A stretch of 53,451 nt of DNA from Desulfosporosinus nitroreducens. GTDB taxonomy: Bacteria > Bacillota > Desulfitobacteriia > Desulfitobacteriales > Desulfitobacteriaceae. Below the pieces are notes generated by a model. It was not told the DNA's origin. It searched no databases and was given only the letters and a program-made list of their open reading frames with translations. The stretch lies in assembly GCF_023897015.1 (NCBI RefSeq), contig NZ_JAMHFY010000032.1, forward strand, positions 1 to 53,451, in the 5' to 3' direction. Shown here piece by piece: positions 9,613 through 45,017 of the stretch. Position 1 is the first letter of the stretch. Each line of letters begins with the position of its first letter. A program made the translations under genes and the position numbers.

Positions 9613-10286
9613 GTGTGCTCACCGCCTGCTATTTTTCCGTCCTCAATACGGATGATGCGGTCTGCAAGCTGAGCAATTTCTTCGTCATGGGTGATCATCA
9701 CAATGGTCTGCTTGAATTTCTCAACCGTCACTTTAAGCAGGCCCAGGACATCCTGGCTGGTCCTGCTGTCTAAGTTGCCGGTTGGCTCATCGGCGAGGAC
9801 AATTGCCGGCTTGGAAGCCAGCGCTCTGGCAATGGCAACCCGCTGCTGCTGACCGCCGGAAAGGTTGTTCGGCAGGTTCTGCAGCTTGTTTTCCAGTCCC
9901 AGCGTTTCGATGATCTGCGTTACATAGCTTTCATCCGGCTCGTTGCCGTCGAGCTGGGTGGGCAGGACGATGTTTTCATAGACATTCAGCACCGGTACTA
10001 GGTTATAGTTTTGAAATACAAAACCGATTTTGCGACGTCGAAAAATGGTCAACTCTTCATCTTTCAGCAAAAATATTTCTTTGTTATCTACAATCACTCT
10101 TCCGCTGGTAGGACGGTCAAGACCGCCTAGCATATGGAGCAGGGTGGATTTCCCGCTGCCGGAGGTACCAACGATGGCTGCGAATTCTCCGGTTTCTACA
10201 GACAGGTTCACGCCAGCCAGCGCATGGACAGCCGTTTCACCGCTGCCGTATTGCTTTTTCAAGTCTATTGTTTCTAAGATGGTCAT
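9609..10286 (-). CDS. ABC transporter ATP-binding protein (MacB/LolD type)
   Basis: 225 aa, cytoplasmic. Walker A GTSGSGKST (residues 40-48), Q-loop VFQNYNLVP, signature LSGGQQQR, Walker B IVLADEPTG and switch ITHDEE are all intact. GGGGAGGAAA lies upstream of the ATG at a good distance. It forms an operon with the permease at 7114-9612 through a four-base overlap. About 110 bp separate it from the histidine kinase gene, and that gap holds an inverted repeat (10312-10339) likely to be its operator. Confidence 0.93.
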   Translation of the reverse strand: MTILETIDLKKQYGSGETAVHALAGVNLSVETGEFAAIVGTSGSGKSTLLHMLGGLDRPTSGRVIVDNKEIFLLKDEELTIFRRRKIGFVFQNYNLVPVLNVYENIVLPTQLDGNEPDESYVTQIIETLGLENKLQNLPNNLSGGQQQRVAIARALASKPAIVLADEPTGNLDSRTSQDVLGLLKVTVEKFKQTIVMITHDEEIAQLADRIIRIEDGKIAGGEHT

Positions 10287-17489: not shown

Positions 17490-18122
17490 ATGTTTCAGTC
17501 ACGTCAGCGTTTTATATTCTACGTCTCAGGTATTATTATCATGACCTTCGGGATAGCATTAACAATTCGTTCGTTAATGGGAACCTCCCCATTTGACGCA
17601 CTCCTGGTAGGATTATTTCAGACATTTGGATTAACGATTGGAAGTTGGGAAATTGTTGTAGGTCTAGCTCTGGTATTATTTAATGCAGCTGCTCAGCGCC
17701 GAAAGCCTGAATATTTCGCCTTACTTACTTCTTTGATTACTGGTATGGGAATAGACCTTTGGCTTTTTGTATTGGGCGATTTAATTAGTCCTATAACACT
17801 GTTCGGTCAAGCTTCTTGTTTAATACTTGGAGTAGGGTTTGTGGGTTTAGGAGTTGCTGTTAATTTACAAGCCGACTTTGCACCAAATCCCATGGATCGG
17901 TCAATGCTAGTCATAAATGAATTAACGGGTCTTAATGTCGCAATTTCACGGGCACTAGTAAGCCTTGTCCTTGTAATACTTGCTTTCATATTTAGAGGCC
18001 CTATTGGTATTGGCACATTATTTTCTGCCCTTTTCACCGGGGTATTTATAAAATTTTTTATGCACTACACAGCGCGTATAAACAAGGATATGAACACCTA
18101 TCTTAAGAGCATAACTCCCTAA
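17490..18122 (+). CDS. YczE/YitT-like membrane protein
   Basis: 210 aa with about five to six membrane helices. The first contains GIALTIRSLMGTSPFDAL, the hallmark of the YczE/YyaS family, and PNPMDRSML lies in a central loop. Start: GAGGAGG lies seven bases before the ATG at 17490; a TTG at 17475 is upstream of that site and unlikely. It sits about 60 bp after the GTPase-NYN gene on the same strand, with a weak hairpin between, so it may be co-transcribed. The function of the family is not established; a transport or membrane-chaperone role is plausible. Confidence 0.85.
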   Translation: MFQSRQRFIFYVSGIIIMTFGIALTIRSLMGTSPFDALLVGLFQTFGLTIGSWEIVVGLALVLFNAAAQRRKPEYFALLTSLITGMGIDLWLFVLGDLISPITLFGQASCLILGVGFVGLGVAVNLQADFAPNPMDRSMLVINELTGLNVAISRALVSLVLVILAFIFRGPIGIGTLFSALFTGVFIKFFMHYTARINKDMNTYLKSITP

Positions 18123-18209
18123 AAAACCACAACCCGGTGTTTGATGCCTGACACCAACTTATCTTAAGGTTTAGAGAGAACTAGCTTGACATATACCGCA
18201 GTACGACAT

Positions 18210-18244
18210 AACAAAGACCGATCAAATGATGATCGGTCTTTGTT
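18210..18244 (+). terminator. terminator after the YczE-like gene
   Basis: Perfect 15-bp stem (18210-18224 with 18230-18244) and loop AATGA, ending in CTTTGTT. It may work on both strands. The stretch 18245-18445 to its right shows nothing I can interpret. Confidence 0.8.
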
Positions 18245-18445
18245 AGTCAGTATTTTAATGATCATTTGAGGGCCGCTGAAATGATTTGTAGGTCAGTCTT
18301 CAGTTCAACCGTGTTATCTGAAGTTCTATACGTAATTGAACTTGATGATATAAGCCATGTTGTACTAGAAAACTAAGTTTGACGCAGGAAGTTAAGGATT
18401 TTATTGACCTAGAAACGTGTCGCACAGCATGTCCGACGAGTAGTA

Positions 18446-19858
18446 TTAGTCGCGCAAGTATTTTAGAGTGCTAAATACATTTTCAGAAACGACACTTGTA
18501 CTACCTAAGACGACGACTTTCTTGGGCGAAAGGGTGTTGAGGTAGACTGAGCTTAATTTCTCAGGGATCTCGTTTGGTTTAACTAAAACGATAGGGGATA
18601 GGATCGAACCAGCAAAAATTGAACCAGCTAGAGCATCTGGGAAATTTGTTCCAGTTGCCACGAAAAGATTAGGACTCAGGTCACTAAAGAGAGCATCGGC
18701 GATCATAGCTGAGGTTTCATACTGGTCAAAGCCTCCAAAACGTTGGAAGTTTGCATCTGGGAAAAGATCTTGGAGTTGTCTCTCAACCTGAGCACTAACC
18801 GCACCCACTCCCCCAACTATCGTAATATTCGTTGGTTCAAGATCTGTGAGATAGGCTAGAGGCTCAGAGGGGATGTTGTTTTTCTGAACGAGAACCATTG
18901 GGATACCAAGCGCAGAAGCATAAGGGGATATCGATAGAGAATCTGGGAAATTTTCTCCGGTAGCGATGATGACTTCCCCGCCTCCAGAAGGCTTGACTTG
19001 TTTAGCAATCTTGGCAGCAGTTCCATAACTAGTTACACCAGCAAGACGCTGAACAGTATAGTGATAATATGGCTCGTCTTTTAGCTCAGCTTCAAGAGCT
19101 GAAGATACGACTGCTGTTCCGCCAAGAATATAGATTTTACCCTCTGGGATTAGAACTCGTTTTATCTCGTCAATCGTTTTCTGATTATCGCCATAAGGGT
19201 CAACCAGCAAAAGAGGCGTATTTTCTAACACACCAAGACTTGCTCCGGCTAAAGCATCAGGGAAGTTATAGCCGGTAGCAAGAAGTACGGCATTTGTACT
19301 AAAATCGGCAGGGAACATTTTTTGAGAAATAGCGATAGAGGTATCAAATCGGTCATAACCAGCAAGTCTGGTACTGGTTGGAAGAAGGGTGTCCACTACC
19401 GGACTAGGGGTAGTTGTGAGCTTAGTTCCTGTATCATTTCCTAAAACCCCTTGTATATTATTACCCCAGGTTAAAATTGTGCCATCAGTCGTTAAGGCAA
19501 TATAATTACTTGGTCCGGCAGCAATTCCTTGAACATTAGTTAAGCCGGAAACTTGTACCGGGTTCATCAATATATCATAACCGAGAGGAGAGTGATTTGA
19601 TGGCTTGGTCCAATCGATACCCCAAACCCATACAGTTCCGTCTTGGCGTGTAGCCATCGTATGACCACTTCCTGCGGTAATGACTTTGACGTTATTAAGG
19701 CCTGAGACTTTAACAGGTATAGCTCGATTATTCGTTGTTCCGTCGCCTAATTGGCCATGAGAGTTATTTCCCCAGGCCCATACGGTGCCATCAGCTTTCA
19801 GGGCGGTTGAATAACTAAATCCTGCAGATACTGCGACGATTTCTGAGAGACCTTGAAC
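18446..19858 (-). pseudogene. RCC1-repeat and CWB2 cell-wall-binding protein, 5' end missing
   Basis: From about 19858 the minus strand reads RCC1-type repeats ([20 protein letters not shown], then [11 protein letters not shown]-like and [14 protein letters not shown]). Three CWB2 modules follow, each with a RLAG/RFGG start, [11 protein letters not shown] or [11 protein letters not shown], and a VGG/LGS.VVS end. CWB2 modules bind anionic wall polymers in Clostridia; RCC1 blades are usually protein-binding. No signal peptide is present. The first in-frame ATG (19657) lies inside an RCC1 repeat. Upstream of 19858 the frame runs into a Phe-rich stretch and a TAG near 19933 with no usable start codon, so the N-terminus has been lost. 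Confidence 0.75.
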
Positions 19859-19992
19859 CTTTTTGAAAAAAAGAAGGAAACTAAAGAAAAATGGAGAATT
19901 TTCGAGAGAGTTTAACTTCTACTGGTGAATAGAGGAGGGATGAAAATAAAATCAGTCGATTATTGAACGTAGGTTAAAAAGGGGTTTGAAAA

Positions 19993-20634
19993 ATGAGTAA
20001 AGAAACTAAGAATCTAAGTTGCGTAGACTGCGGGCTTATTAACTGCTATAGGAGAGAAAAAAGCTTTCCGCAATTCTGCCTTACAACGAATACTGATAAT
20101 GAAATGATCGAAGAAGCGAAAAGCCTTTATCTAAACGATGAGTTCGTTTCTAAGTTGTCCCATGCGGCAGCAGAGATTGAGGGGACATACTTTGGTAAGA
20201 TAACTCGTGTAGAAGAGATCGTTCTCTTTGCTAAAAGAATTGGAGCAAAGAAAATTGGGATCGCAACCTGTGTTGGTTTAATGAGTGAAGCTAAAACGTT
20301 TGCAAAAATACTTAATTCAAAAGGGCTGGAAAGTTATTGTGTGATCTGTAAGGTAAGCTCAATTGACAAAACAGAAATCGGTATAGACGAAAAGTTTAAA
20401 ATTAAAAAAGGCGGTCATGAATCCATATGTAATCCTGTTTTGCAAGCAAAATTACTTAATAAAGAAAAGACAGACTTAAATGTTATAGTCGGGCTATGTG
20501 TTGGTCATGACTCAATATTTATTAAGTACTCAGAGGCACCTGTGACAACCCTTATTACTAAGGATCGTGTACTTGCCCATAATCCCTGCAGGGGCATTAT
20601 ATACAAGCGGATTTTACTATACGAGATTGCTTGA
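19993..20634 (+). CDS. DUF1847 family cysteine-rich protein
   Basis: 213 aa, cytoplasmic. The N-terminus carries CVDCGLINCYRRE and a further Cys near residue 29, a likely metal or iron-sulfur site. Conserved blocks GIATCVGLMSEA, KGGHESICNPVLQA, GLCVGHDSIF and HNPCRGI identify DUF1847, a family common in anaerobes with unknown function. AAAGGGG lies about eight bases before the ATG. The gene stands alone, with a small hairpin (ACCCCCTTAATTTAGGGGGT, near 20660-20680) behind it. Confidence 0.88.
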   Translation: MSKETKNLSCVDCGLINCYRREKSFPQFCLTTNTDNEMIEEAKSLYLNDEFVSKLSHAAAEIEGTYFGKITRVEEIVLFAKRIGAKKIGIATCVGLMSEAKTFAKILNSKGLESYCVICKVSSIDKTEIGIDEKFKIKKGGHESICNPVLQAKLLNKEKTDLNVIVGLCVGHDSIFIKYSEAPVTTLITKDRVLAHNPCRGIIYKRILLYEIA

Positions 20635-29163: not shown

Positions 29164-30309
29164 ATGGTCACACATGCGGTGCTGCATGTTACGGCACAGC
29201 TTGGACCAACGGAGGTGCAAAACAATATGTCTACGGCTTGTGCTCTTGCTATTGCTATTCAGGCTGGAGTACCGATCTTAACCTGGGGCCCCCCAGGTGT
29301 AGGAAAAACTGCAACTATTACGATGCTTGCCGATGTACTGGCACTCCCGCTCGAAGTTGTTCTGGCATCCATTCGAGAACCTTCGGATTTTTCCGGTCTT
29401 CCGGTAATTAGGGAGGAAGGTGTCCGCATGGTGCCTCCCGCATGGGCTCATCGCTTGGCACAGGCCGGAAAAGGTCTACTTTTTCTTGATGAAATCTCCA
29501 CAGCTCCGCCTGCGGTTCAATCTGCCTTATTAAGAGTTGTTTTGGAAAGGGTAGTAGGGGATTTAGCTTTACCTGCCAATGTATCTGTTGTTGCATCGGC
29601 AAACCCTCCGGAACAGGCCGTTGGTGGATGGGATCTTTCCGCTCCTCTGGCGAACAGATTCTGCCACCTTTTTTGGTCCATGGACACTCAGGGTTGGATA
29701 GACGGTATGATTGGGGGATGGTCTATCTCTGACTTGCCGCATCTTCCTTCGTCCTGGGAGAATACTATATCGGAAAAAGAGGTGCTTGTGGCCTCCTTTA
29801 TCCGGTATAGGCCAAATTTATTGCTACAGGTGCCCAAAGATGAAGGTCAAGCCGGAAAGGCTTGGCCGTCTCCTAGATCTTGGTCCACGACAGCTAGATT
29901 ATTGGCAGCTGCGGAAACGGTGCGGGCAGAAGAGGACGTTATTGCTTCTCTCATAGCTGGATGTGTTGGCGAAGGAGCCTGTTTGGAATTTTTAGCCTGG
30001 CGCAGAGATTTAGATCTGCCGGATCCGGAAGTAATATTGGCCAATCCGACCTACCTTCGGCTTCCGGATCGCGGAGACCAGGCCTTTGCAATACTGACGG
30101 CTGTTATCTCTGCCGCTGTTGGCAGGCTAACAGAAGAACGCTGGTTTGCTGCCTGGTGCGTACTTGCCCTGGCATCGGAACACGGAATGAAAGATATTGC
30201 AGCGGTTGCCGCCAAAAAATTAGCCGCAGCCAGGAAACAGGAATTACCTATACCACTGAAAGAATTACAGGAATTTGCGCCGTTGCTGCAAAAAGGGGGA
30301 CTAATGTGA
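29164..30309 (+). CDS. MoxR-like AAA ATPase
   Basis: 381 aa. Walker A GPPGVGKTA, the sensor-like VVLASIREPSDFSGLP region, Walker B GLLFLDEIS, sensor 1 VVASANPPE, and an arginine-finger-type SAPLANRFCH are intact. MoxR ATPases act as chaperones that assemble or activate proteins carrying VWA domains, and such a partner is encoded two genes downstream. The first ATG has only a weak ribosome site. A second ATG at 29227, behind GGAGGTG, may be the real start and would still keep the whole ATPase core. Its stop overlaps the next gene by GTGA. Confidence 0.92.
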   Translation: MVTHAVLHVTAQLGPTEVQNNMSTACALAIAIQAGVPILTWGPPGVGKTATITMLADVLALPLEVVLASIREPSDFSGLPVIREEGVRMVPPAWAHRLAQAGKGLLFLDEISTAPPAVQSALLRVVLERVVGDLALPANVSVVASANPPEQAVGGWDLSAPLANRFCHLFWSMDTQGWIDGMIGGWSISDLPHLPSSWENTISEKEVLVASFIRYRPNLLLQVPKDEGQAGKAWPSPRSWSTTARLLAAAETVRAEEDVIASLIAGCVGEGACLEFLAWRRDLDLPDPEVILANPTYLRLPDRGDQAFAILTAVISAAVGRLTEERWFAAWCVLALASEHGMKDIAAVAAKKLAAARKQELPIPLKELQEFAPLLQKGGLM

Positions 30310-30959
30310 ATCCTCCTTATGAGTACCGCAACATACCTTGGAAGGAAAATGCTTTCGAGCAATCCGGCCGGGTTTTAGTGGGCATGGAAGGGATAAGGGA
30401 ATCTAGACTGGACGTATTTAATTATGAAGGTTCAAAACTATCTGCTTACCATATTTATGCTGTTCTAAAAGTGGCAATGACTGAGTACTGGGTCGAAAGA
30501 ATGGAAAAGTTGCATCAAAACCGGAAAAGCAATTGGAAGGCGGAAATGCTAGTGAGCCCTGAAGGGAAGAAAGAGTACCGTCTTTATACAACTGGACAGA
30601 ATGATCCTGTCTGTTCGTCGGTAATTGCCATTTCCAACAACCAAATCCATAACTTTTCCATTCTGTCGGAAGATGCGGCCCCTCTCTTGAAGAAAATCTT
30701 TGAGGATTATCCTCCGGTCTTTCTGCCACGCTACCGAAATTACCGGCAAAATTCATGTTTTCCAACTCTTTATTATTTAGATGCTCAAACTATGAAATTT
30801 TTAAGGCTTCCGGAGCCAATAAAAGAGCAGAGAGAGCGAACTCAAAGAATTATGGTCGATAAAGATATTTTTTCATCCGGTACCTTTCAAGCAGGTGAAA
30901 CGTCTGGAATCATTGAAACAATTGAAGCATTAAAATGTTTGGAGGTGTTACAGGCGTGA
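30306..30959 (+). CDS. unrecognised protein between a MoxR ATPase and a VWA protein
   Basis: 217 aa from a GTG at 30306 behind AAGGGGG; the GTG shares bases with the TGA of the ATPase gene. No membrane segment and no motif I know. It is rich in aromatic and basic residues in the middle (AYHIYAVLKVAMTEYWVERM) and has a Glu-rich C-terminus (ETSGIIETIEALKCLEVLQA). Its stop again overlaps the next start (GTGA at 30956-30959), so three proteins are made in tight coupling. It is probably a substrate, adaptor or inhibitor for the pair. A clear homology search could decide this. Confidence 0.75.
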   Translation: MNPPYEYRNIPWKENAFEQSGRVLVGMEGIRESRLDVFNYEGSKLSAYHIYAVLKVAMTEYWVERMEKLHQNRKSNWKAEMLVSPEGKKEYRLYTTGQNDPVCSSVIAISNNQIHNFSILSEDAAPLLKKIFEDYPPVFLPRYRNYRQNSCFPTLYYLDAQTMKFLRLPEPIKEQRERTQRIMVDKDIFSSGTFQAGETSGIIETIEALKCLEVLQA

Positions 30960-32308
30960 TTCTCCCCCTGGAGCTGCAGTCAGCCCGCATTCGCCTGGCT
31001 AAAGAACGTCCCTATTTGGCTTCCGCTGCCTGGGCTCTCCAGCCGGTACCAAAGCCAGGCTTGGAAACAATGGCAGTCGATATGTATTGGAGACTCTATT
31101 ACGATCCAGCCGTATTATCCCGTTGGTCGGTGGAAGTTATGGAAGGCGCTTTATACCATGAAATTTGTCATCTTCTCCGCAATCACTCTGAAAGGATGAG
31201 GAACTTTAATCCGCGCTTAAGCAACATTGCTGCAGACGCGGAAATTAATGACGACCTTATCCGTGAAGGTGTTAAATTTCCGAACCAACCGGTGACTCCC
31301 GAATTCATCGGACAACCGGAAAACCTCCTGGCAGAGGAATACTATGCGTCCTTGGAGAAACAGGAATGGCCGCCTTCTGCCGATCAAACGAAGAATCACG
31401 TACATTCAGATTCACCCGTCGAAAAAGAAACAGGCGAAGCAGCTCATGCCAGTGGTCGGAACTTTTCAAAGGTTATAGAGGGAGAGTACGGCGGTTCCGA
31501 TTTACCGGAACCGCCTAGGCCCGGTTCTGGTCGGTGCGGCTCTTGTGCAACCGGTCAAATGGCGCCTTGGGAGGATAAACCGCCTACCAAAGGTTCCTCA
31601 TCCGGTCTCAGTCGAACGGAAGGAGAGTTAATGCGCAGGGATGTTGCCAAGCAAATCAGAGAACATGTCAGAGATCAGGGCTGTGTACCTGGTCATTGGG
31701 CCCGATGGGCAGAAGAAAAACTTCATCCAAAAGTAGACTGGCGAAAACAACTTGCTGCTGCTGTCCGATTTGCTGTAGCGGATACAACTGGGGCAACAGA
31801 TTATTCCTACCGTCGTCCCTCGCGTCGCCAGGGGCAGGTTGGAAATGGAGATGTTATTTTTCCGTCCATGCGCTGTCCTGTCCCTTCAGTGGCCGTTGTA
31901 GCGGACACCAGTGGAAGTATATCTGAGAAAATGCTTGCCCAGACCCTAGCCGAATTATCCAGTATCTTAAAGTCCTTGGGACAAAAGGAAGGAATCCACG
32001 TTTTGGCCGTGGATCAGACTGTTGAGTTTTGCCGTCGGGTGTTTCGTCCGGAACAGATCCAACTCGCGGGAGGCGGAGGAACAGACATGGGGATTGGCTT
32101 GGAAACTGCTGCAAGATTAAAGCCTTTACCTCAATTGGGAATCGTTATTACCGACGGACATACATCATGGCCCGATCGTCCACCACGAGGGATGAAAGTC
32201 ATTGTAGTTTTGTTCGGGGACGTAACGGCCCCTGATTGGGCCAAGGTAATCCAAATTAGTGCACAGAGCGAGGGAGCTATAATAAAAGCTGTTCGGCTGA
32301 TTGAATGA
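30956..32308 (+). CDS. DUF2201-type protein: putative metallopeptidase domain plus VWA-like domain
   Basis: 450 aa from the GTG at 30956 (GGAGGTG eight bases upstream); an ATG seven codons earlier precedes that site. The N-terminal half has HEICHLLRNHSERM, a zinc HExxH-type motif in which the second position is Glu and the His pair is kept. A Pro/Gly/Ser-rich linker (about 140-230) includes CGSCATG. The C-terminal half has the VWA-like core VVADTSGSISEKM (metal site D-T-S-G-S) and GGGGTDMGIG. This is the partner family of MoxR ATPases. The target and purpose of the pair are unknown here. Confidence 0.88.
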   Translation: MILPLELQSARIRLAKERPYLASAAWALQPVPKPGLETMAVDMYWRLYYDPAVLSRWSVEVMEGALYHEICHLLRNHSERMRNFNPRLSNIAADAEINDDLIREGVKFPNQPVTPEFIGQPENLLAEEYYASLEKQEWPPSADQTKNHVHSDSPVEKETGEAAHASGRNFSKVIEGEYGGSDLPEPPRPGSGRCGSCATGQMAPWEDKPPTKGSSSGLSRTEGELMRRDVAKQIREHVRDQGCVPGHWARWAEEKLHPKVDWRKQLAAAVRFAVADTTGATDYSYRRPSRRQGQVGNGDVIFPSMRCPVPSVAVVADTSGSISEKMLAQTLAELSSILKSLGQKEGIHVLAVDQTVEFCRRVFRPEQIQLAGGGGTDMGIGLETAARLKPLPQLGIVITDGHTSWPDRPPRGMKVIVVLFGDVTAPDWAKVIQISAQSEGAIIKAVRLIE

Positions 32309-32576: not shown

Positions 32577-32745
32577 TATACTATTGACATATTAGCAGTG
32601 TAATAACGTAATTGAATATGTAAATGATCAGCTTAGGAAAACTACTAGCCTCTTCTTGCGGCATCAATAATTATTAATATTGGAATATTATCGAATTCAC
32701 TCATATATGATGACATAATAATATAAACAATTAGTGAGGAAAGAT

Positions 32746-33633
32746 ATGAGAAAAATTCGTAAAGCAGTTATTCCGGCAGCAGGACTTGGCACACGTTTTT
32801 TACCGGCAACAAAGGCTCAACCTAAGGAAATGTTACCGATAGTGGATAAACCTACAATCCAGTTTATTGTTGAAGAAGCCGTTCAATCGGGGATTCAAGA
32901 CATTATAATCGTGACAGGTCGTAGCAAACGCGCTATAGAAGACCATTTTGACCGTTCGGTTGAACTGGAGATGTTCTTAAAGAACACCAATAAAGAAGCC
33001 CTTTTGGATGTGGTACAAGATATTTCGAGTATGGCGAACATTTTCTATGTTCGTCAAAAGGAAGCTCTGGGATTAGGTCATGCTATCTATTGCACAAGCA
33101 AGTTTATTGGAGATGAGCCTTTCGCAGTATTGCTGGGGGATGATATCATTCATGCCAAGGTACCTTGTTTGAAGCAAATGATTAATATTTACGAACGTTA
33201 TGGGGCTAGCATTGTCGGGGTCAAGGAGGTCCCTTTAGAAAAGGTTTCTAGATATGGAATCGTAGATGGAGAGAATATTGGTGAACGTATATATAGTGCT
33301 CGAGATTTGATTGAAAAGCCTAGTCCAGAAGATGCCCCTGCGACACGTCTAGCAATTATGGGGCGCTATATTTTAAATCCGGAGATTTTCGGAATTTTAG
33401 AGAGCCTTCAGCCTGGTCAGGGCGGAGAAATACAACTGACTGACGGTTTGCGCGAACTTAGCAAATTACAGAAGATTATCGCCTATGATTTTGAAGGACG
33501 TAGATATGATGTAGGAGACAAATTGGGTTTCATTCAAACTACAATTGAATACGGCTTAAGACATGATGATTTGTCTGATGATTTAATGAACTATCTACGT
33601 GAACTCATGCAGGTAATTCCACTCCGATCGTAG
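32746..33633 (+). CDS. galU: UTP-glucose-1-phosphate uridylyltransferase
   Basis: 295 aa from the ATG at 32746 (GAGG six bases upstream; a GTG at 32734 is less likely). KAVIPAAGLGTRFLPATKA is the nucleotide-binding loop, followed by PKEMLPIVDKPTIQ and LGLGHAI. The product is UDP-glucose, the substrate of the Ugd encoded at 35200. It corresponds to Bacillus YtdA/GtaB, and together with the genes to the right it matches the spore-coat sugar cluster. It stands on the plus strand with its own terminator. Confidence 0.95.
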   Translation: MRKIRKAVIPAAGLGTRFLPATKAQPKEMLPIVDKPTIQFIVEEAVQSGIQDIIIVTGRSKRAIEDHFDRSVELEMFLKNTNKEALLDVVQDISSMANIFYVRQKEALGLGHAIYCTSKFIGDEPFAVLLGDDIIHAKVPCLKQMINIYERYGASIVGVKEVPLEKVSRYGIVDGENIGERIYSARDLIEKPSPEDAPATRLAIMGRYILNPEIFGILESLQPGQGGEIQLTDGLRELSKLQKIIAYDFEGRRYDVGDKLGFIQTTIEYGLRHDDLSDDLMNYLRELMQVIPLRS

Positions 33634-33789: not shown

Positions 33790-34152
<363 letters not shown>

Positions 34153-34213: not shown

Positions 34214-35203
34214 TTAGATATAAGATTCTTTGTGTATTATATGACCGCTTTTATAAAGTGGTACTGAATTGTAGCGAATGTCGTTGATCTGTTCTTCTAA
34301 TCCCGATTTCAAAGAGCTTACTGGATTATAGTTTAATAATGTTTGCGCCTTCGATATATCTGCCCAAGTATCCTTCGGATCGCCATGAAGCTGCTCCATA
34401 AATTTCAGATTGGCCCTTTCGTTGAGTAAATCTTCAAGTATCGCTATGACTTCTAAGATGGAAGCTCGTTCCTTACCACCAATATTGATGGTTTCCCCGA
34501 TCACTCCATCTGCATGAAGAGCCGCAACAGTTCCTTCAACACAATCCCTGATAAAGGTAAAATCACGGGTTTGCTTTCCATCTCCATAAATACTAAGAGG
34601 TTTGCGCTGCAAAATAGCATTGATAAATCGATGAAAAGCCATATCTGATCGTTGTCTTGGACCAAACAGAGTAAAATATCTTAAAATAACAATGGGGATC
34701 CCGTAACTTAGCTGATATACCTTACATAAATATTCAGCGGTTAATTTACTCACGCCATAAGGAGAAAGTGGAGTTGGAATAGAATCTTCTGCTACTTTCC
34801 CTACTTTCTCCCCATAAACTGAAGACGTTGAAATATAGATGAACTTTTTAAGCGGGCAATTTCGTACCGCCTCTAATAAAATTTGAGTGGCTGAGATATT
34901 ATGGTCTACATAAGATTGAAAATCAGTTCCCCAACTTGTGCGAACACCAGGCATTGCCGCTAAATGGTAGACTACTTCAACTCCGTCGAGAATTGACTCT
35001 AAGTTAGCTTTGCGAAGGTCAACTTGATGAAATAGAAAACGAGGATGGGCAAGCAGCCGCGTTAGATTCCTCTCTTTTGTTTGCTTAAGAGAAGGATTAA
35101 TAAATCCGTCAATCCCAATGACCTCAGTCTCGTCGAATTGGAGTAATCGTTCACAAAGCTGTGAGCCGATAAAACCAGCGGCTCCAGTCACTAATACTTT
35201 CAT
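34214..35203 (-). CDS. NAD-dependent sugar-nucleotide epimerase (YtcB-like)
   Basis: 329 aa extended short-chain dehydrogenase. TGAAGFIGSQL at the start binds NAD. The catalytic triad is in STSSVYG (Ser126-128) and YGVSK (Tyr149, Lys153). RYFTLFGPRQRSDMAF is the substrate loop. It is likely a UDP-glucuronate or UDP-glucose 4-epimerase. Its ATG overlaps the stop of the Ugd gene (ATGA, 35200-35203), so Ugd product probably passes to it, making UDP-galacturonate. It corresponds to Bacillus YtcB in the coat-sugar cluster. Confidence 0.92.
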   Translation of the reverse strand: MKVLVTGAAGFIGSQLCERLLQFDETEVIGIDGFINPSLKQTKERNLTRLLAHPRFLFHQVDLRKANLESILDGVEVVYHLAAMPGVRTSWGTDFQSYVDHNISATQILLEAVRNCPLKKFIYISTSSVYGEKVGKVAEDSIPTPLSPYGVSKLTAEYLCKVYQLSYGIPIVILRYFTLFGPRQRSDMAFHRFINAILQRKPLSIYGDGKQTRDFTFIRDCVEGTVAALHADGVIGETINIGGKERASILEVIAILEDLLNERANLKFMEQLHGDPKDTWADISKAQTLLNYNPVSSLKSGLEEQINDIRYNSVPLYKSGHIIHKESYI

Positions 35204-36480
35204 TGTTTTCCAACCCCCAAGTAAACTAATCCTTGTTTCCTGACAAGTTTTTCATCGATACAGTTTCGAGCATCAAGAACAATAGATCCCTTCATTCTCG
35301 ATTTTACTTCTGACCAATCACTTTCTAGAAATTGTGGCCATTCAGTCGCAATAATTAAAGCATCTGAATTCGTAACCGATTCATATTTATCGGTATGGGA
35401 ATGAACACCTGGTAATTCAAGTTGTACCATAGGATCGTGTGTGTGAACTCGACAGCCCTTTTCAAGAAGCTTGTTGATTAGAGTAATTGCTGGAGATGAA
35501 CGTAAATCGTCCGTACCAGGTTTAAAGGTCACCCCCCAAACTGTAATCTGTTTTTCCGTTAAATCCGGAACTTCTGTAGTCAGTTTATTCAAGTACAGCT
35601 TAATTTGGGTGTCATTTACTTCCCTGACAGCATCAAGTAGTTTCGTTTCTACGTTTTTCCGTATCGCTGAATGTTTGAGAGAACTAAGATCTTTGGGTAG
35701 ACATGATCCGCCAAACCCTAATCCTGAGTTTAGAAAGTACCGACCTATTCGAGGATCAGTCCCTAGTCCTTTGGCAATATCGGCATAGTCTACTCCGTAA
35801 GCATCACAAATACGAGCCATTTCATTAGCAAACGAGATTTTCGTGGCTAAAAAGGCATTACTAGCGTATTTAATGAGTTCCGCTCCAGTCAAACTGGTAA
35901 ATATATAAGGCGCTTTTCCTCGTTTATAAAGCTTTTTAAGCTCTTTTATTGGACGACTGGTCTTCGTGCCAAAGACTATTTTATTTGGGTGATAAAGATC
36001 CCATAAGGCTAATCCTTCACGCAAAAACTCGGGATTGGAAACTATATCAAATAAGTCTTCGTTGATGCCTTTTTCAACTAAGGTTTGGTAAATCCATTCA
36101 TTGGTTCCCGGAGGCACAGTGCTTTTAGTAATAACAATTTTATAGACATTTGTTGTCGAAGCAATGACTTCAACGATCTGGTTAATAAACGTCAGGTTAC
36201 AGCTTCCATCTTCCTGGGAAGGTGTACCAACGGCAATTAGAATTATTGGATAATCTTTAATACTCTCTTCCACCTGTGACGAAAAAAAGAGTGTATTATT
36301 TTTAATGTTTTTATTGATTAACTCATCCAATCCAGGTTCATATATGGGAACTTTACCTTGACGAAGGCTTTCAATTTTTGATTCTTCCATGTCCACACAT
36401 ATAACTTCATGTCCAAAGTCGGCTAAAGCAGCAGCCGTTGTGAGGCCTACATAACCTGCGCCTACGATGCATATTCTCAT
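35200..36480 (-). CDS. ugd: UDP-glucose 6-dehydrogenase (YtcA/TuaD-like)
   Basis: 426 aa from the ATG at 36480 (GGTGGAG six bases upstream; the GTG at 36492 is inside that site). GAGYVGLTTAAALADFGHEV binds NAD. EFLREGLALWDLYHP and KYASNAFLATKISFANE are family blocks. The catalytic Cys lies in GFGGSCLPKD; the usual Phe after Cys is Leu here. It oxidises UDP-glucose to UDP-glucuronate. It is translationally coupled to the epimerase and diverges from the kinase-glycosyltransferase gene. Confidence 0.95.
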   Translation of the reverse strand: MRICIVGAGYVGLTTAAALADFGHEVICVDMEESKIESLRQGKVPIYEPGLDELINKNIKNNTLFFSSQVEESIKDYPIILIAVGTPSQEDGSCNLTFINQIVEVIASTTNVYKIVITKSTVPPGTNEWIYQTLVEKGINEDLFDIVSNPEFLREGLALWDLYHPNKIVFGTKTSRPIKELKKLYKRGKAPYIFTSLTGAELIKYASNAFLATKISFANEMARICDAYGVDYADIAKGLGTDPRIGRYFLNSGLGFGGSCLPKDLSSLKHSAIRKNVETKLLDAVREVNDTQIKLYLNKLTTEVPDLTEKQITVWGVTFKPGTDDLRSSPAITLINKLLEKGCRVHTHDPMVQLELPGVHSHTDKYESVTNSDALIIATEWPQFLESDWSEVKSRMKGSIVLDARNCIDEKLVRKQGLVYLGVGKQ

Positions 36481-36667
36481 TAATCGCTCCACCTATGCTA
36501 ATAAAATGTCCGCAAGATAGTTTATTAGAAGATGAGAATAAGGGTGCAAATGTACAAATTATGAGAGTAAATTTAGAATTATAGACAAATTGAATTTTTT
36601 CATGATTCCACTCACCGTCAAGGTTGAATAGATTATATATGTACCTTGATAAAGTGGAGGGAAAGAT

Positions 36668-39505
36668 GTGAATGAATATCAGATTCACCCGTGGGATACT
36701 GAAGATCACCCTGAAATAATCGATTTAGATATGTGGGTACCACCAGAAATTGATGAATTAGCAACCGAAGTAATCGCTTGCTACGACATGAAGGTCAACG
36801 TTAAAACGTTAATTACCGCTAAGTCAGACAAAGGTGGGGCCATTTGGAAAATTGAAACCGATAAAGGACCTCGCAGCTTAAAAGTCTTACACCGTAAGCC
36901 CGCTAGAAGTCTTTTTAGCGTGGGGGCGCAGGACTATATAGTAAAACAAGGAGGGCGAGTACCGGAATTAAAACAAACCCAAAACGGGCTTCTCTATGTC
37001 GAAAAAGGCGGAAAGTTATGGATTGTTACGGATTGGATTGAACCCCTCACTCCAGCGAATAATGACCTTGAAGGTGCTCAAGCCTTATGCTATGGTTTGG
37101 GAGAGTTTCATAAGCGTTCTAAGGGATATGCTCCCCCACCAGGTTCCAAAAGAGCGTCTAGATTGTATCGTTGGCCCGATTATTATCGAAAAGTTATCAG
37201 TAAATTCAATTGGTTTAGAAGTGTCGCTCAAGCTTATCATGATCTTCCAAGCAGCCAATTACTTCTTTCCACTATCGACGTTTTTGAACGAGAAGCTCAT
37301 GCCGTAGTCAGCGTTCTTGAGCAATCATCGTATGCACAGATGGTTGCCATGGGAGAAGAGCACTGGGGACTTGTTCACCAAGACTTCGGATGGTCTAATG
37401 GTCAACTTGGAGCTGGTGGACTTTGGGTGATCGATCTAGACGGAGTATCTTACGATTTACCAATTCGCGATCTACGAAAGCTAATATCAAGCACAATGTT
37501 CGACTTGGGCAAATGGGACGTTACGTGGATTCAGGGAATGATAAACGCCTATCACTCAGCGAATCCTCTTGACCTAGAAACGTATGAGATTCTATTAAAT
37601 GATCTAGCCTTTCCCAATGAGTTCTACAAACACATAAAAGAGATGTTATACGATCCTCAAAATTTCCTGAATCTAAATGTTGAAGCGATTCTTCAGCGTC
37701 TGACTCTCGTAGAACAAACAAAGGGCCAGGCCTTAGCTACACTGAAGCTCGATAAGGATAAGTTTAAGACAGGTAACTATGCATCGATACCAGTTTCTGA
37801 ACCTGAGATTCTTCAAATGATGCAAATGAAAGCGACTAAGGAAAAAACGACTTTACCAAGTCTAATCGAAGAAAATTCTCTCTTAAATTCAACGATGGTG
37901 CAAGATGGCTCTTCTCTTAAAAAGAAAACTCATAAAAAAAATAAACTTATAAGTATTGAAAGAGGTAAGAGCTCCGGTGGGAAGGATAGTATCAATAACA
38001 ATAGGGACCATCAATTAAAGATCCTTATGATTTGTACTGAAAAGTTACCAGTCCCACCAGTACGAGGCGGTGCAATTCAAACCTATATTCAGGGAATATC
38101 GGGGAAATTAGGCCAGAAACATGATTTAACGATCTTGGGAACAACCGATTCCTCGCTCCCCCTTGATGAAACTAGAGATAATATTAAGTATGTAAGAATC
38201 GACGGTCAGCAAATCTTCGAAATTTATGCCGAGAAGGTTCTTAATTTCCTTCGTGATGAATCCTTTGACCTTATTCATGTCTTCAATCGACCGAGGCTTA
38301 TTCCGTTAATTCGTGAAGTCGCCCCTCATTCTCGACTAATCTTAAGTATGCATAACGACATGTTTAATTCTAATAAGATTTTACATGCCGATGCGCTTTC
38401 GGCTATTGCTGAAGTAGAATGTATTGTCACAGTCAGTGATTATGTCGGAAATACGATCTCAAATCTTTATCCTCAAGCAGCAGAAAAGGTTCAGACGATC
38501 TATTCAGGAGTAAACCTAGAGGACTTTGTTCCTTGGGAGACGTCAAATACTGCCGCTCAGATTCGCCAGAAACTCAGGAAAGAAAATAATCTTGAAGACA
38601 AAACAGTTATTTTATTTGTTGGGCGGTTAACTCCTAAAAAAGGAACAGATCTTTTAATTCAAGCACTAAAAGAGGCTCATTCTTCTAATCCGAAGATTGC
38701 CTTGGTCATCGTAGGCGGAACATGGTATAGCGTGGATAGAGTCACTGATTACGTTGCTTATATACGTGCCCTTGCAGAGAGAGCACCATTTCCGGTAATT
38801 ACTACGGGTTACGTTTCAGCTGATAATATTCATCAGTGGTTTTGGGCGGGAGATATTTTTGTATGCCCTTCCGAGTGGCAAGAACCATTAGCTCGTGTCC
38901 ACTACGAAGCCATGGCAGCCGGCTTACCCTTTATCACAACAGCAAGAGGTGGGAATCCAGAGGTTGTCATTGATGAAAATGGGTTAGTTGTTCAGAAACC
39001 CGAGGACCCTGTTGAATTTGCTGAGAAAATTACAATACTCTTATCTGATCCCAAGCTTAGACAAAGAATGGGGCAGACCGGTAGACGTTTGGCAGAAGAA
39101 CGGTTTGGTTGGGAACGAGTTGCTCAGGAAGTCTTAGAAACATGGAAACTGGGAGCTTCTATTAAAACCAATCTGAAGAACGATCGTACCGAACTCATGA
39201 CGAGTGAGAGTTTAGAGAAAGCCAAATTGAAGGATAAAGGCAAGGTTAAAAGTAAGGTTAAAATGAAAAAAATAGTAGAAATAAAAGTTAATGATACCGA
39301 TAGTATTAAGCGCCAAGAAGAGGTCTGTGTTGATTTGGAAAATCTTTCATCAGCAGTGAAAGTCAGTTCCAACGTTGTGAAGATTACCCGAGACATTATT
39401 TTTCCTATGAGTTATGATCATGATTTAGTGTATATTAATACACCCTCAAAAGTATCAAACTTTTCATCAGTCGTGAAAGTGACCAGTGCAATGATACGAC
39501 GTTAG
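36668..39505 (+). CDS. fusion of a CotS-family kinase with a GT4 glycosyltransferase (CotS-CotSA-like)
   Basis: 945 aa from a GTG behind GGAGGG. Residues about 20-345 are a CotS/HSK2-type kinase with IVTDWIEP, a catalytic loop LVHQDFGWSNGQL (near 235) and metal motif VIDLDGV (near 257). After a Lys/Ser-rich linker, residues about 450-825 form a GT4 glycosyltransferase: PPVRGGAIQTYI, VGRLTPKKGTDLL, and the C-terminal PSEWQEPLARVHYEAMAAGLP block. A basic Lys-rich tail (about 840-945) follows. In Bacillus the separate spore-coat proteins CotS/CotI (kinase) and CotSA (transferase) work together, and CotI phosphorylates CotSA. Here they are one chain. Confidence 0.9.
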   Translation: MNEYQIHPWDTEDHPEIIDLDMWVPPEIDELATEVIACYDMKVNVKTLITAKSDKGGAIWKIETDKGPRSLKVLHRKPARSLFSVGAQDYIVKQGGRVPELKQTQNGLLYVEKGGKLWIVTDWIEPLTPANNDLEGAQALCYGLGEFHKRSKGYAPPPGSKRASRLYRWPDYYRKVISKFNWFRSVAQAYHDLPSSQLLLSTIDVFEREAHAVVSVLEQSSYAQMVAMGEEHWGLVHQDFGWSNGQLGAGGLWVIDLDGVSYDLPIRDLRKLISSTMFDLGKWDVTWIQGMINAYHSANPLDLETYEILLNDLAFPNEFYKHIKEMLYDPQNFLNLNVEAILQRLTLVEQTKGQALATLKLDKDKFKTGNYASIPVSEPEILQMMQMKATKEKTTLPSLIEENSLLNSTMVQDGSSLKKKTHKKNKLISIERGKSSGGKDSINNNRDHQLKILMICTEKLPVPPVRGGAIQTYIQGISGKLGQKHDLTILGTTDSSLPLDETRDNIKYVRIDGQQIFEIYAEKVLNFLRDESFDLIHVFNRPRLIPLIREVAPHSRLILSMHNDMFNSNKILHADALSAIAEVECIVTVSDYVGNTISNLYPQAAEKVQTIYSGVNLEDFVPWETSNTAAQIRQKLRKENNLEDKTVILFVGRLTPKKGTDLLIQALKEAHSSNPKIALVIVGGTWYSVDRVTDYVAYIRALAERAPFPVITTGYVSADNIHQWFWAGDIFVCPSEWQEPLARVHYEAMAAGLPFITTARGGNPEVVIDENGLVVQKPEDPVEFAEKITILLSDPKLRQRMGQTGRRLAEERFGWERVAQEVLETWKLGASIKTNLKNDRTELMTSESLEKAKLKDKGKVKSKVKMKKIVEIKVNDTDSIKRQEEVCVDLENLSSAVKVSSNVVKITRDIIFPMSYDHDLVYINTPSKVSNFSSVVKVTSAMIRR

Positions 39506-39639: not shown

Positions 39640-39745
39640 CAAGAGCGGCTCTTTCAATACTAACGTAGTTTCAAACAGGTCCCCGGATCATTCGAAGATG
39701 GGCAAGTTAAGGTCGCCTGTTTAAAGTTAGGCGGCCTTTTTAATT
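39640..39745 (+). ncRNA. candidate regulatory RNA with terminator and alternative stem
   Basis: AGGTCGCCT (39710-39718) pairs with AGGCGGCCT (39729-39737, one G-T pair), then TTTTTAATTT: an intrinsic terminator. AAACAGG (39673-39679) can instead pair with CCTGTTT (39716-39722), which overlaps the left terminator arm. This is the architecture of an attenuator or riboswitch. No gene begins for 520 bases downstream, so it could instead be a small RNA. It is not matched to a known class. Confidence 0.3.
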
Positions 39746-43262: not shown

Positions 43263-43510
43263 GTGTTCCTTATTCTACTTCGGTGACGATAGTCTCCAGT
43301 GGAGAGTATCGCCGAGCGCCTTTCCCAATAGGAACACTTGGCGCGAAGGAGGTAGACTTCCCACAGAAGTCTCGATGTTCAGCTTTAGCTGAACGAGTTC
43401 ACTATTCTTCTTACCACTTGTTGCCGTAAAGCCCCTAGTTTCAACTATGGGATATAAGGCAATTCTAGGTTCTAATTGTATTATATAGGTATGTGCAGTA
43501 TAATATAAAT

Positions 43511-43918
43511 ATGGATATAAACTACAAATCTAACAACAACATTGTCTATTCATGCAAGTACCATGTGGTGTGGTGTCCAAAGTATCGTAGGAAGGTTTTG
43601 GTTGGTCAAATTGAAGTTCGCTTAAAGGAGTTGATAAGGGAGATATGCGAAGAACTTCAATCCGAACTAATAGAACTGGAGATCATGCCCGACCATGTCC
43701 ACCTTTTGATAGAAGTAGATCCTCAATTTGGTGTTCATAAGGTCATTAAAACGATCAAAGGAAAAACGTCGAGAATACTTAGAAAGGAGTTTAAAGAGTT
43801 AACCACTAAATTGCCAACGTTATGGACTAATTCGTATTTTATCTCTACAGTTGGAGGTGCGCCGTTAGCCATTGTTAAGCAGTATATTGAAAGTCAAAAG
43901 GTTTCAGAGAGGAGGTAA
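43511..43918 (+). CDS. tnpA: IS200-type Y1 transposase TnpA
   Basis: 135 aa from the ATG at 43511; a GTG six codons earlier is possible and neither has a good ribosome site, as is usual in this family. HUH motif in [11 protein letters not shown] (His-x-His), catalytic Tyr in [10 protein letters not shown] near the C-terminus, and [14 protein letters not shown] at the start. It nicks and joins single strands at the element ends. It stops just before the ribosome site of tnpB. Confidence 0.95.
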
Positions 43919-43922
43919 TGCC

Positions 43923-45017
43923 TTGCACAAAGCCTTTAAATTTCGGCTATATCCAACCAAAGAACAGATAGTACTCATTAACAAAACGATAGGTTGTACT
44001 CGATACGTCTACAATCACTTCCTTGATGCACGTATTAAACTATTTGAGGCTGAACGAAAAACCCTGAACTTTAATTCTTGCTGTCTTGAACTCACACAAT
44101 TAAAGAAACAAATCGAATGGCTTCAAGAGGTCGATTCCATGGCCCTCCAGCAAACTCTTAAAGACTTGGATAAAGCCTATCAAAAGTTCTTCAGAGAGAA
44201 AAAGGGGTTTCCTAACTTCAAAAGTAAAAAGAATCCTAAACAAAGCTACAGAACTAACGCCAATAAATCTAGTATTGAGGTAAGTGATAGCAAGATTAAG
44301 CTCACCAAACTTGGATGGGTAAGTTTTGCGAAGAGTAGAGAAGTTGACGGAAAGATCATTTCAGCTACGATTCGCAGAAATCCTAGTGGAACCTATTTCA
44401 TCTCAATTCTTTGCGAAGTAGAGATTCAACCTTTGCCAAGAGTCGATCAAGCCGTAGGGATTGACTTAGGAATTAAGGAGTTTGCCATCACGTCTGACGG
44501 TGAACATTATAGGAATCCTAAACACTATCGCAAACACGAACGTAAGCTGAAACGGCTCCAACGAAAGCTATCTAAAAAACAAAAAGGGAGTCACAACCGA
44601 GACAAAGCGAGAATAAAAGTTGCTAAGGCCCATGAAACTATTCGCAATTGCCGTCAGGATTTTTTGCATAAGCTAACAACTAAACTGATTCGTGAAAATC
44701 AAACGATCTGTTTGGAAGATTTGCAGGTAAAGAACATGATTCAAAATCATAATCTAGCAAAGTCGATAGCGGATGTTTCTTGGTCTGAATTCCGGTCAAT
44801 GCTGGATTATAAAGCGAGATGGTATGGACGGAAATTATCGATCATCGGCAAAACATTCCCATCCAGTCAGCAATGTTTTGCATGTGGTTATCGCAATAAG
44901 GATGTAAAAAACTTGAACCTGCGAGAATGGATATGCCCAATTTGCGGCATGTATCATGATAGAGATGAAAACGCCGCCAAAAATATCCTTAGAGAAGGAT
45001 TAAGGCTGGCAGGATAA
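43923..45017 (+). CDS. tnpB: IS605-type RNA-guided nuclease TnpB
   Basis: 364 aa from a TTG at 43923, behind GAGGAGGT seven bases upstream; frame-consistent starts further left lie inside tnp[12 protein letters not shown] is the N-terminal signature. RuvC residues are Asp181 in GIDLGIKEF, Glu265 in [10 protein letters not shown], and Asp in [12 protein letters not shown] (about 346-350). A zinc ribbon CFACG/CPICG lies before the third. All catalytic residues are present. TnpB proteins cut DNA guided by an RNA from the element's right end. Confidence 0.95.

Follow-up and report, generated by a model that had tools for sequence, protein, structure and literature searches.

The window analysed here, a stretch of 53,451 nucleotides from Desulfosporosinus nitroreducens, raised the question of what a spore-coat-type kinase and a glycosyltransferase (GT) do in a single polypeptide chain. 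The paper describing the structure of spore-coat kinases did not settle their role (PMC2860764). We considered whether the fusion was genuine, where it occurred, what surrounded it and which function was the most probable.

A kinase and a GT4 glycosyltransferase in one chain

The fused gene and its parts were as follows.

36668 to 39505, forward strand: fused kinase-GT4 gene encoding 945 residues, about 105 kDa, with a GTG start, supported by domain models and by one frame in relatives
36827 to 37738, forward strand: kinase domain of the bacterial spore kinases (BSK; CotS family), residues 54-357, matched by TIGR02906
37838 to 38005, forward strand: disordered linker, residues 391-446, pLDDT below 50, net charge variable
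38012 to 39148, forward strand: GT4 glycosyltransferase domain, residues 449-827, matched by PF00534 and PF13439, with E-x7-E
39158 to 39502, forward strand: disordered C-terminal tail, residues 831-945, pLDDT below 50
39374 to 39400, forward strand: first copy of the tail motif, VVKITRDII
39470 to 39496, forward strand: second copy of the tail motif, VVKVTSAMI
36626 to 36637, forward strand: conserved upstream block GAATAGATTATA, a possible promoter element, from an alignment of 15 upstream regions
39709 to 39738, forward strand: terminator-like stem after the fusion, a pattern match only, such sites being fewer than in shuffles

The original prediction of a CotS-family kinase and a glycosyltransferase in one chain held, since a single open frame matched both domain models. 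Residues 54-357 belonged to the spore_CotS family TIGR02906 (286.5 bits, E 2e-85, cut-off 172.7), and residues 471-827 matched GT4 models, PF00534 placing the domain in GT4 with 127.5 bits against a cut-off of 26.4. An AlphaFold model built on a 58-row alignment (pTM 0.72) contained two confident domains, with residues 391-446 and 831-945 below pLDDT 50, and Foldseek ranked YtaA of B. subtilis (2Q83) first for this model, followed by GT4 enzymes. A GGAGGG site preceded the GTG start at 36668, and 14 further upstream regions had ATG or GTG at the equivalent position. The closest named locus was that of Desulfosporosinus sp. I2, with 90% identity in the best segment. In a search of the order, 17 of 73 genomes matched at E <= 1e-40 and 15 of them had both domains in one frame; thus, the fusion was real and not an assembly artefact. 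Among these 15, the frame was cut by the contig end in G039 and by a stop just after the GT in G021. One of the other two genomes, G019, could not be judged, as its match lay at a contig edge and began with the GT. The other, G044, carried a fusion remnant (L175, residues 646-943 only) in which the C-terminal half of the GT stood beside an intact-looking Ugd start, and no kinase was found upstream in the DNA read.

The linker had been called Lys-rich and the tail basic. The first description was correct for this protein (12 Lys among 84 residues, net charge +5) and did not apply generally, as the linkers of the aligned rows had net charges between -3 and +10. The tail was usually basic but not universally so: its composition was poorly conserved and its net charge ranged from -17 to +23. 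One or two copies of a VVKITRDMI-like motif were present in the tail of 12 of the 16 rows that reached the C-terminus of the GT, among them G019 and G044; it was missing in L166-L168, and L172 was cut by a stop. The DNA pattern of the motif had two matches in the source genome, both within the fusion.

Sigma-K dependence of the promoter had been proposed as a check. The upstream block GAATAGATTATA was conserved, with changes, across the aligned upstream regions and resembled, one mismatch apart, the -10 consensus of sporulation promoters, yet no canonical sigma-K site was found in the window. Relaxed sigma-E-type matches were scattered among the upstream regions, sigma-K-type matches occurred in L174 only and on the other strand, and a scan for sigma-70-type sites gave 19 against 19.5 in shuffles. 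The source genome also had a SpoIIIAF match of 60.5 bits, just under the cut-off of 61.3, which agreed with the source being a spore former.

Distribution and origin of the fusion

Searching for the same fusion had been proposed as a check on the prediction, which homologues on separate genes only, together with a lack of spore expression, would have contradicted; the 15 fused genomes among the 73 of the order settled the first of these points in its favour. Searches restricted to the genus and the family matched 11 of 29 and 15 of 45 genomes, respectively. Since 56 of the 73 genomes lacked a match, the locus was patchy, which reflects loss, transfer or both. In a sample of the phylum, 30 of 398 genomes matched and three were fused (G000, G032, G052), all from this order. 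Fourteen of the 27 non-fused matches were read as DNA and had separate frames or a GT without a kinase, and 13 were judged from the match rows alone. A search of genome contigs gave 93 stretches encoding a relative, of which 80 loci were kept, five fused and 75 non-fused. No fused form was seen outside the order among the matches of the phylum sample and of the genome contigs, so that the earlier attribution to anaerobic spore formers in general was too wide. Frame lengths of 782 in G329 and 756 in G254 had suggested independent fusions outside the order, which on rereading were 390-residue GT frames.

The statement that kinase and transferase are separate genes elsewhere was confirmed. Both genes were recovered in 74 of the 75 non-fused loci (L057 had no kinase in the locus DNA), and in all 74 they were adjacent on one strand with the kinase first and with frames that overlapped or lay close together. 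Measured on open frames, a long extension of at least 50 residues was carried by exactly one partner in 65 of the 74 separate pairs (L028-L102): by the kinase only in 34, by the GT only in 31, by both in two and by neither in seven.

The kinase and GT trees were each built from 71 rows by a quick search with no bootstrap, about one in three of L028-L102 being sampled. In both, the 15 fused rows formed one side of a branch with an SH-aLRT of 100. A single fusion event would be the simplest reading of these topologies. The nearest group to the fused clade in the GT tree was Paenibacillus (support 89), and the kinase tree left the nearest group open.

The names given to the two domains in the original prediction, CotS-type and CotSA-type, were not borne out. 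In the kinase tree, the kinases of the 15 fusions clustered with 34 further rows in one clade (support 100), apart from the kinases of Bacillus-type loci, YtaA/CotI-like as well as CotS-like. The fusion kinase was closer to the YtaA/CotI-like (38-40% identity) than to the CotS-like ones (27-33%), and it scored 238.6 bits against the CotI equivalog NF053880, below the cut-off of 550. We read its group as a third clade of BSKs, separate from CotI and from the CotS-like kinases. The fusion kinase did not group with the CotS-like kinases in a tree that included those of Bacillus-type loci in place of B. subtilis CotS itself. The GT domain was about equally far from two Bacillus-type enzymes, with 40-42% identity to CotSA-like and 42-44% to YtcC-like proteins, and its fused clade lay outside the group holding both. 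These labels (CotS-like, CotSA-like, YtcC-like) were assigned by gene order against PMC2860764, and YtaA was the one B. subtilis protein compared directly.

Both active sites looked intact. Eight checked kinase positions were conserved in 15 of 15 fused rows and in 28 of 28 sampled separate kinases, and both Glu residues of E-x7-E were kept in all 15 fused rows. All four CotS-like kinases had changes at H237, at N244 and at both DxD aspartates, so that activity is more to be expected of the fusion kinase than of the CotS-like type. A profile search of the whole source genome (5.46 Mb) gave one TIGR02906 match over the cut-off, the fusion kinase at 289.8 bits, and a second, weak match at 38.7 bits.

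Sugar genes and a poly-acidic protein beside the fusion

Four genes lay upstream of the fusion.

32734 to 33633, forward strand: GalU (ytdA-like), TIGR01099 with 397.6 bits, cut-off 326.8
33790 to 34152, reverse strand: poly-Asp/Glu protein of 120 residues, with an N-terminal module, an acidic tract and a KVNVINR end
34214 to 35203, reverse strand: epimerase, probably UDP-glucuronate 4-epimerase (ytcB-like), nearest solved relative 6zl6
35200 to 36492, reverse strand: UDP-glucose 6-dehydrogenase Ugd (ytcA-like), divergent from the fusion, TIGR03026 with 459.9 bits, cut-off 189.8

GalU, Ugd and an epimerase were adjacent to the fusion, as had been described. The first solved relative of the epimerase was 6zl6 (389 bits), which we take to be the B. 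cereus UDP-glucuronate 4-epimerase, and the next was MoeE5 (183 bits); this order points to a UDP-glucuronate 4-epimerase as the probable identity. A 2009 table called the ytcB-type gene a UDP-glucose epimerase (PMC2860764), and the B. cereus UDP-glucuronate 4-epimerase has been cited as 6Z73 (PMC12338863).

Ugd was divergent from the fusion in 15 of 15 fused loci, with a contig end cutting it in L177 and L011. The epimerase came after Ugd in this locus and in ten more; in G014 and G019 it was on separate contigs. Where the locus DNA extended far enough on the GalU side, as it did in 13 loci, GalU was found in nine. The full sugar set was not always present: no epimerase was found within 20 kb in G020 (L171) or G052 (L167), and in the latter Ugd was a broken remnant (around 9086-9807) although the fusion was intact. 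The set is not new, as the ytdA/ytcA/ytcB/cotSA/cotS/ytaA cluster has already been described for Bacillus (PMC2860764). The functional link between kinase and transferase that the original prediction had drawn was strengthened, because the separate genes were adjacent, the fusion was conserved and it kept company with UDP-sugar genes.

Other features of the window and of related loci were recorded as well. An IS200/IS605-type element with a Y1 transposase and an overlapping OrfB/TnpB-like gene was located at 43493-45017 (forward strand), and an AAA (MoxR-like) ATPase gene stood beside a DUF2201 metallopeptidase/VWA gene at 29164-32308 (forward strand). A seeming repeat at 18001-20000, suggested by equal base counts in two windows, was a coincidence. 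In L179, L180, L181 and L190, a protein with an FSPPGPMGW motif was encoded downstream of a CotS-like gene, and L180 additionally had a frame of 81 residues that combined a similar module with an acidic tail.

The poly-Asp/Glu protein combined a conserved N-terminal module of some 40 residues with an extended Asp/Glu tract and a terminal KVNVINR sequence. Among relatives its length varied from 57 to 269 residues, the tract varied greatly, and the KVNVINR-type end was absent in frame from the proteins of G021, G032, G048 and G052. A profile of the module (A1) gave strong matches (E < 1e-17) to 15 of the 17 genomes with a match to the fusion and to none of the 56 others (Fisher p 9e-14, uncorrected for relatedness), a test that was partly circular because A1 was built from these same genes. 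The two exceptions were G022, with no match, and G044, with a weak one. The acidic gene adjoined the epimerase in 13 of the 15 genomes; it was directly after Ugd in G020 and near the Ugd remnant in G052. Weak paralogues of the module (E 2e-11 to 4e-4) occurred in G004, G006, G007, G011, G012, G028, G043 and G044, and as second copies in G000 and G010; of all these, four among those read ended in RKINIIN. The second copy of the source genome was at G000:C3:15734-15844 (E 1.5e-9).

An open frame with an acidic tract was also found near separate pairs, in 27 of 34 loci with a kinase tail, both loci with two tails, one of 31 with a GT tail (L052, judged unrelated) and none of seven tailless loci, a pattern that largely tracked the divide between Paenibacillaceae and Bacillaceae. 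No such frame was found in fifteen other loci (54 kb). The A1 profile matched 22 of the 30 acidic frames near separate pairs (E < 0.01 in that small set), and a profile-profile comparison of A1 with the Paenibacillus acidic frames gave a probability of 84% and E 7e-6 over 35 columns. The acidic protein beside the basic-tailed Paenibacillus kinases is therefore likely, but not certainly, a homologue. A 113-residue Paenibacillus model of the module had no PDB match at E <= 0.001, Pfam gave only matches below the cut-off, and we recognised no published account of the protein in the open-licence literature.

We also compared the charge of the enzyme with the acidity of its partner. The net charge of linker and tail taken together covaried with this acidity in 12 fused loci (contrasts r 0.70, 11 of 11 of the same sign, p about 0.001, among eleven traits tested); the tail alone gave p about 0.01, the linker alone p 0.22 and the Lys count alone p 0.06-0.07, and the controls, kinase core and GT core, were not significant. 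This test dropped L172 (tail stop) and L176 (contig start, Ns); all 14 rows together gave a Spearman coefficient of 0.71. The same test in 27 Paenibacillus loci, leaving out L033, L038 and L052, had the opposite sign (Spearman -0.22; contrasts r -0.48, p 0.037). We therefore do not claim that charge covaries as a rule, and the idea of an acidic partner rests on linkage more than on charge. In that idea, the basic-tailed kinase-GT and the poly-Asp/Glu protein would form a coat machine of opposite charges, the latter recruiting or condensing the enzyme (or the uronic-acid glycan and metal ions) on the spore surface; the design would predate the split between Paenibacillus and Desulfitobacteriales-type loci, and the enzymes would have fused later in the latter. 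We offer this as a tentative and rather doubtful suggestion.

Proposed function and comparison with known systems

The explanation that we favour, with modest confidence, is a single-chain coat-glycan enzyme in which the GT4 domain uses a UDP-sugar donor, the kinase acts on a sugar or glycan and the tail docks on the coat. The fusion would be the single-chain form of the BSK kinase-GT4 pair, which is encoded by two adjacent genes in other endospore formers. GalU, Ugd and the epimerase would supply UDP-glucose, UDP-glucuronate and UDP-galacturonate, and the GT4 domain would take one such UDP-sugar to build or attach coat glycan. By likeness to its choline/aminoglycoside-kinase relatives, the kinase would most likely phosphorylate an intermediate of this series, a sugar or a glycan, and not the transferase. 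The disordered tail would probably dock the enzyme on the forming coat, perhaps via the neighbouring poly-Asp protein. The sequences show the fusion, its conservation, the intact active-site residues and the conserved gene company; we infer the coat location, donor sugar, kinase substrate and docking. In favour of this explanation we counted the CotS-family score over the cut-off, the one fused clade of both trees, the intact kinase and GT4 positions, the likeness of the epimerase to 6zl6 and the SpoIIIAF-like match; the missing sigma-K site, the patchy distribution and the incomplete sugar sets of G020 and G052 weigh against it. Spores of the anaerobe Moorella thermoacetica contained a putative orthologue of CotSA, and CotS was reported absent there (PMC8745062); we counted the detection for the coat-glycan explanation and, against it, that a CotSA-like protein can occur without CotS. 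Spores of a cotH mutant were without CotS and CotSA, among other proteins (PMC7821199), and CotSA and YtcC were listed among the glycosyltransferases potentially involved in crust glycans (PMC10502511).

The original prediction had instead stated that the kinase phosphorylates the transferase. According to PMC2860764, no BSK had been assayed by 2009 and what was reported is that CotSA requires CotS for assembly, so that phosphorylation of the transferase was not established; PMC12029333 restates the 2009 proposal, and we recognised no later BSK assay in the open-licence literature. A protein kinase acting on its own transferase domain, linker or tail would be favoured by the fusion itself, which sets the kinase beside the transferase, by the existence of disordered tails containing Ser and Lys, and by CotH, which phosphorylates Ser/Lys-rich coat proteins, CotB and CotG being the model (PMC7821199). 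However, the kinase group to which BSKs belong usually acts on small molecules (PMC2860764), the tails are poorly conserved in composition, and most separate pairs have a long tail on one partner only (65 of 74) or on neither (seven), which makes this alternative improbable.

We gave about as little credence to a kinase domain that serves as a non-catalytic scaffold tethering the transferase to the coat. The dependence of CotSA assembly on CotS would suit such a role, as would the prediction that several BSKs, possibly CotS itself in some species, are pseudokinases (PMC2860764), but the eight kinase positions were intact in all fused rows and sampled separate kinases, whereas the four CotS-like ones were altered at H237, N244 and both DxD aspartates. 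A vegetative product of the locus, either a capsule or a wall polymer of the teichuronic-acid type, seemed equally unlikely in place of a coat glycan. The Ugd resembled TuaD, with 436.7 bits under a cut-off of 700, and a spore promoter was not established; against this, the kinase scored over the cut-off of a spore-coat family and the gene set matched the Bacillus cotS/ytaA coat cluster.

The coat-glycan enzyme thus remained our preferred reading. We recognised no published account of a kinase-GT fusion in the open-licence literature, and a BSK-GT fusion of single origin with a linked poly-acidic protein was not found described in the literature searched. With intact catalytic residues and as the sole CotS-family protein over the cut-off, the fusion would be a compact object for assays, both activities being in one chain. 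Moreover, two features suggest that the system has another component, namely the one long tail that most pairs carry and the poly-acidic protein linked to the locus.

Several known systems can be compared with this locus. CotH belongs to a kinase family different from BSK. Together with CotB and CotG it resembles the present case in combining a coat kinase with Lys/Ser-rich coat proteins (PMC7821199), whereas it has no GT fusion. The CotS-CotSA pair of B. subtilis is similar in that kinase and GT are linked by gene order and CotSA needs CotS (PMC2860764); it differs in that the CotS-like kinases, so labelled from gene order, have changed catalytic residues and belong to another clade. B. subtilis YtaA/CotI (2Q83) shares the kinase fold, the checked active-site residues and about 39% identity with the fusion kinase, but it is encoded by a separate gene, belongs to another BSK clade and defines an equivalog family (NF053880) whose cut-off the fusion does not reach. 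The separate pairs of Paenibacillus and Bacillaceae (L028-L102) were in the same clade as the fusion in both trees and had the same order of kinase before GT; in contrast to the fusion, they consist of two genes, usually with the long tail on one partner.
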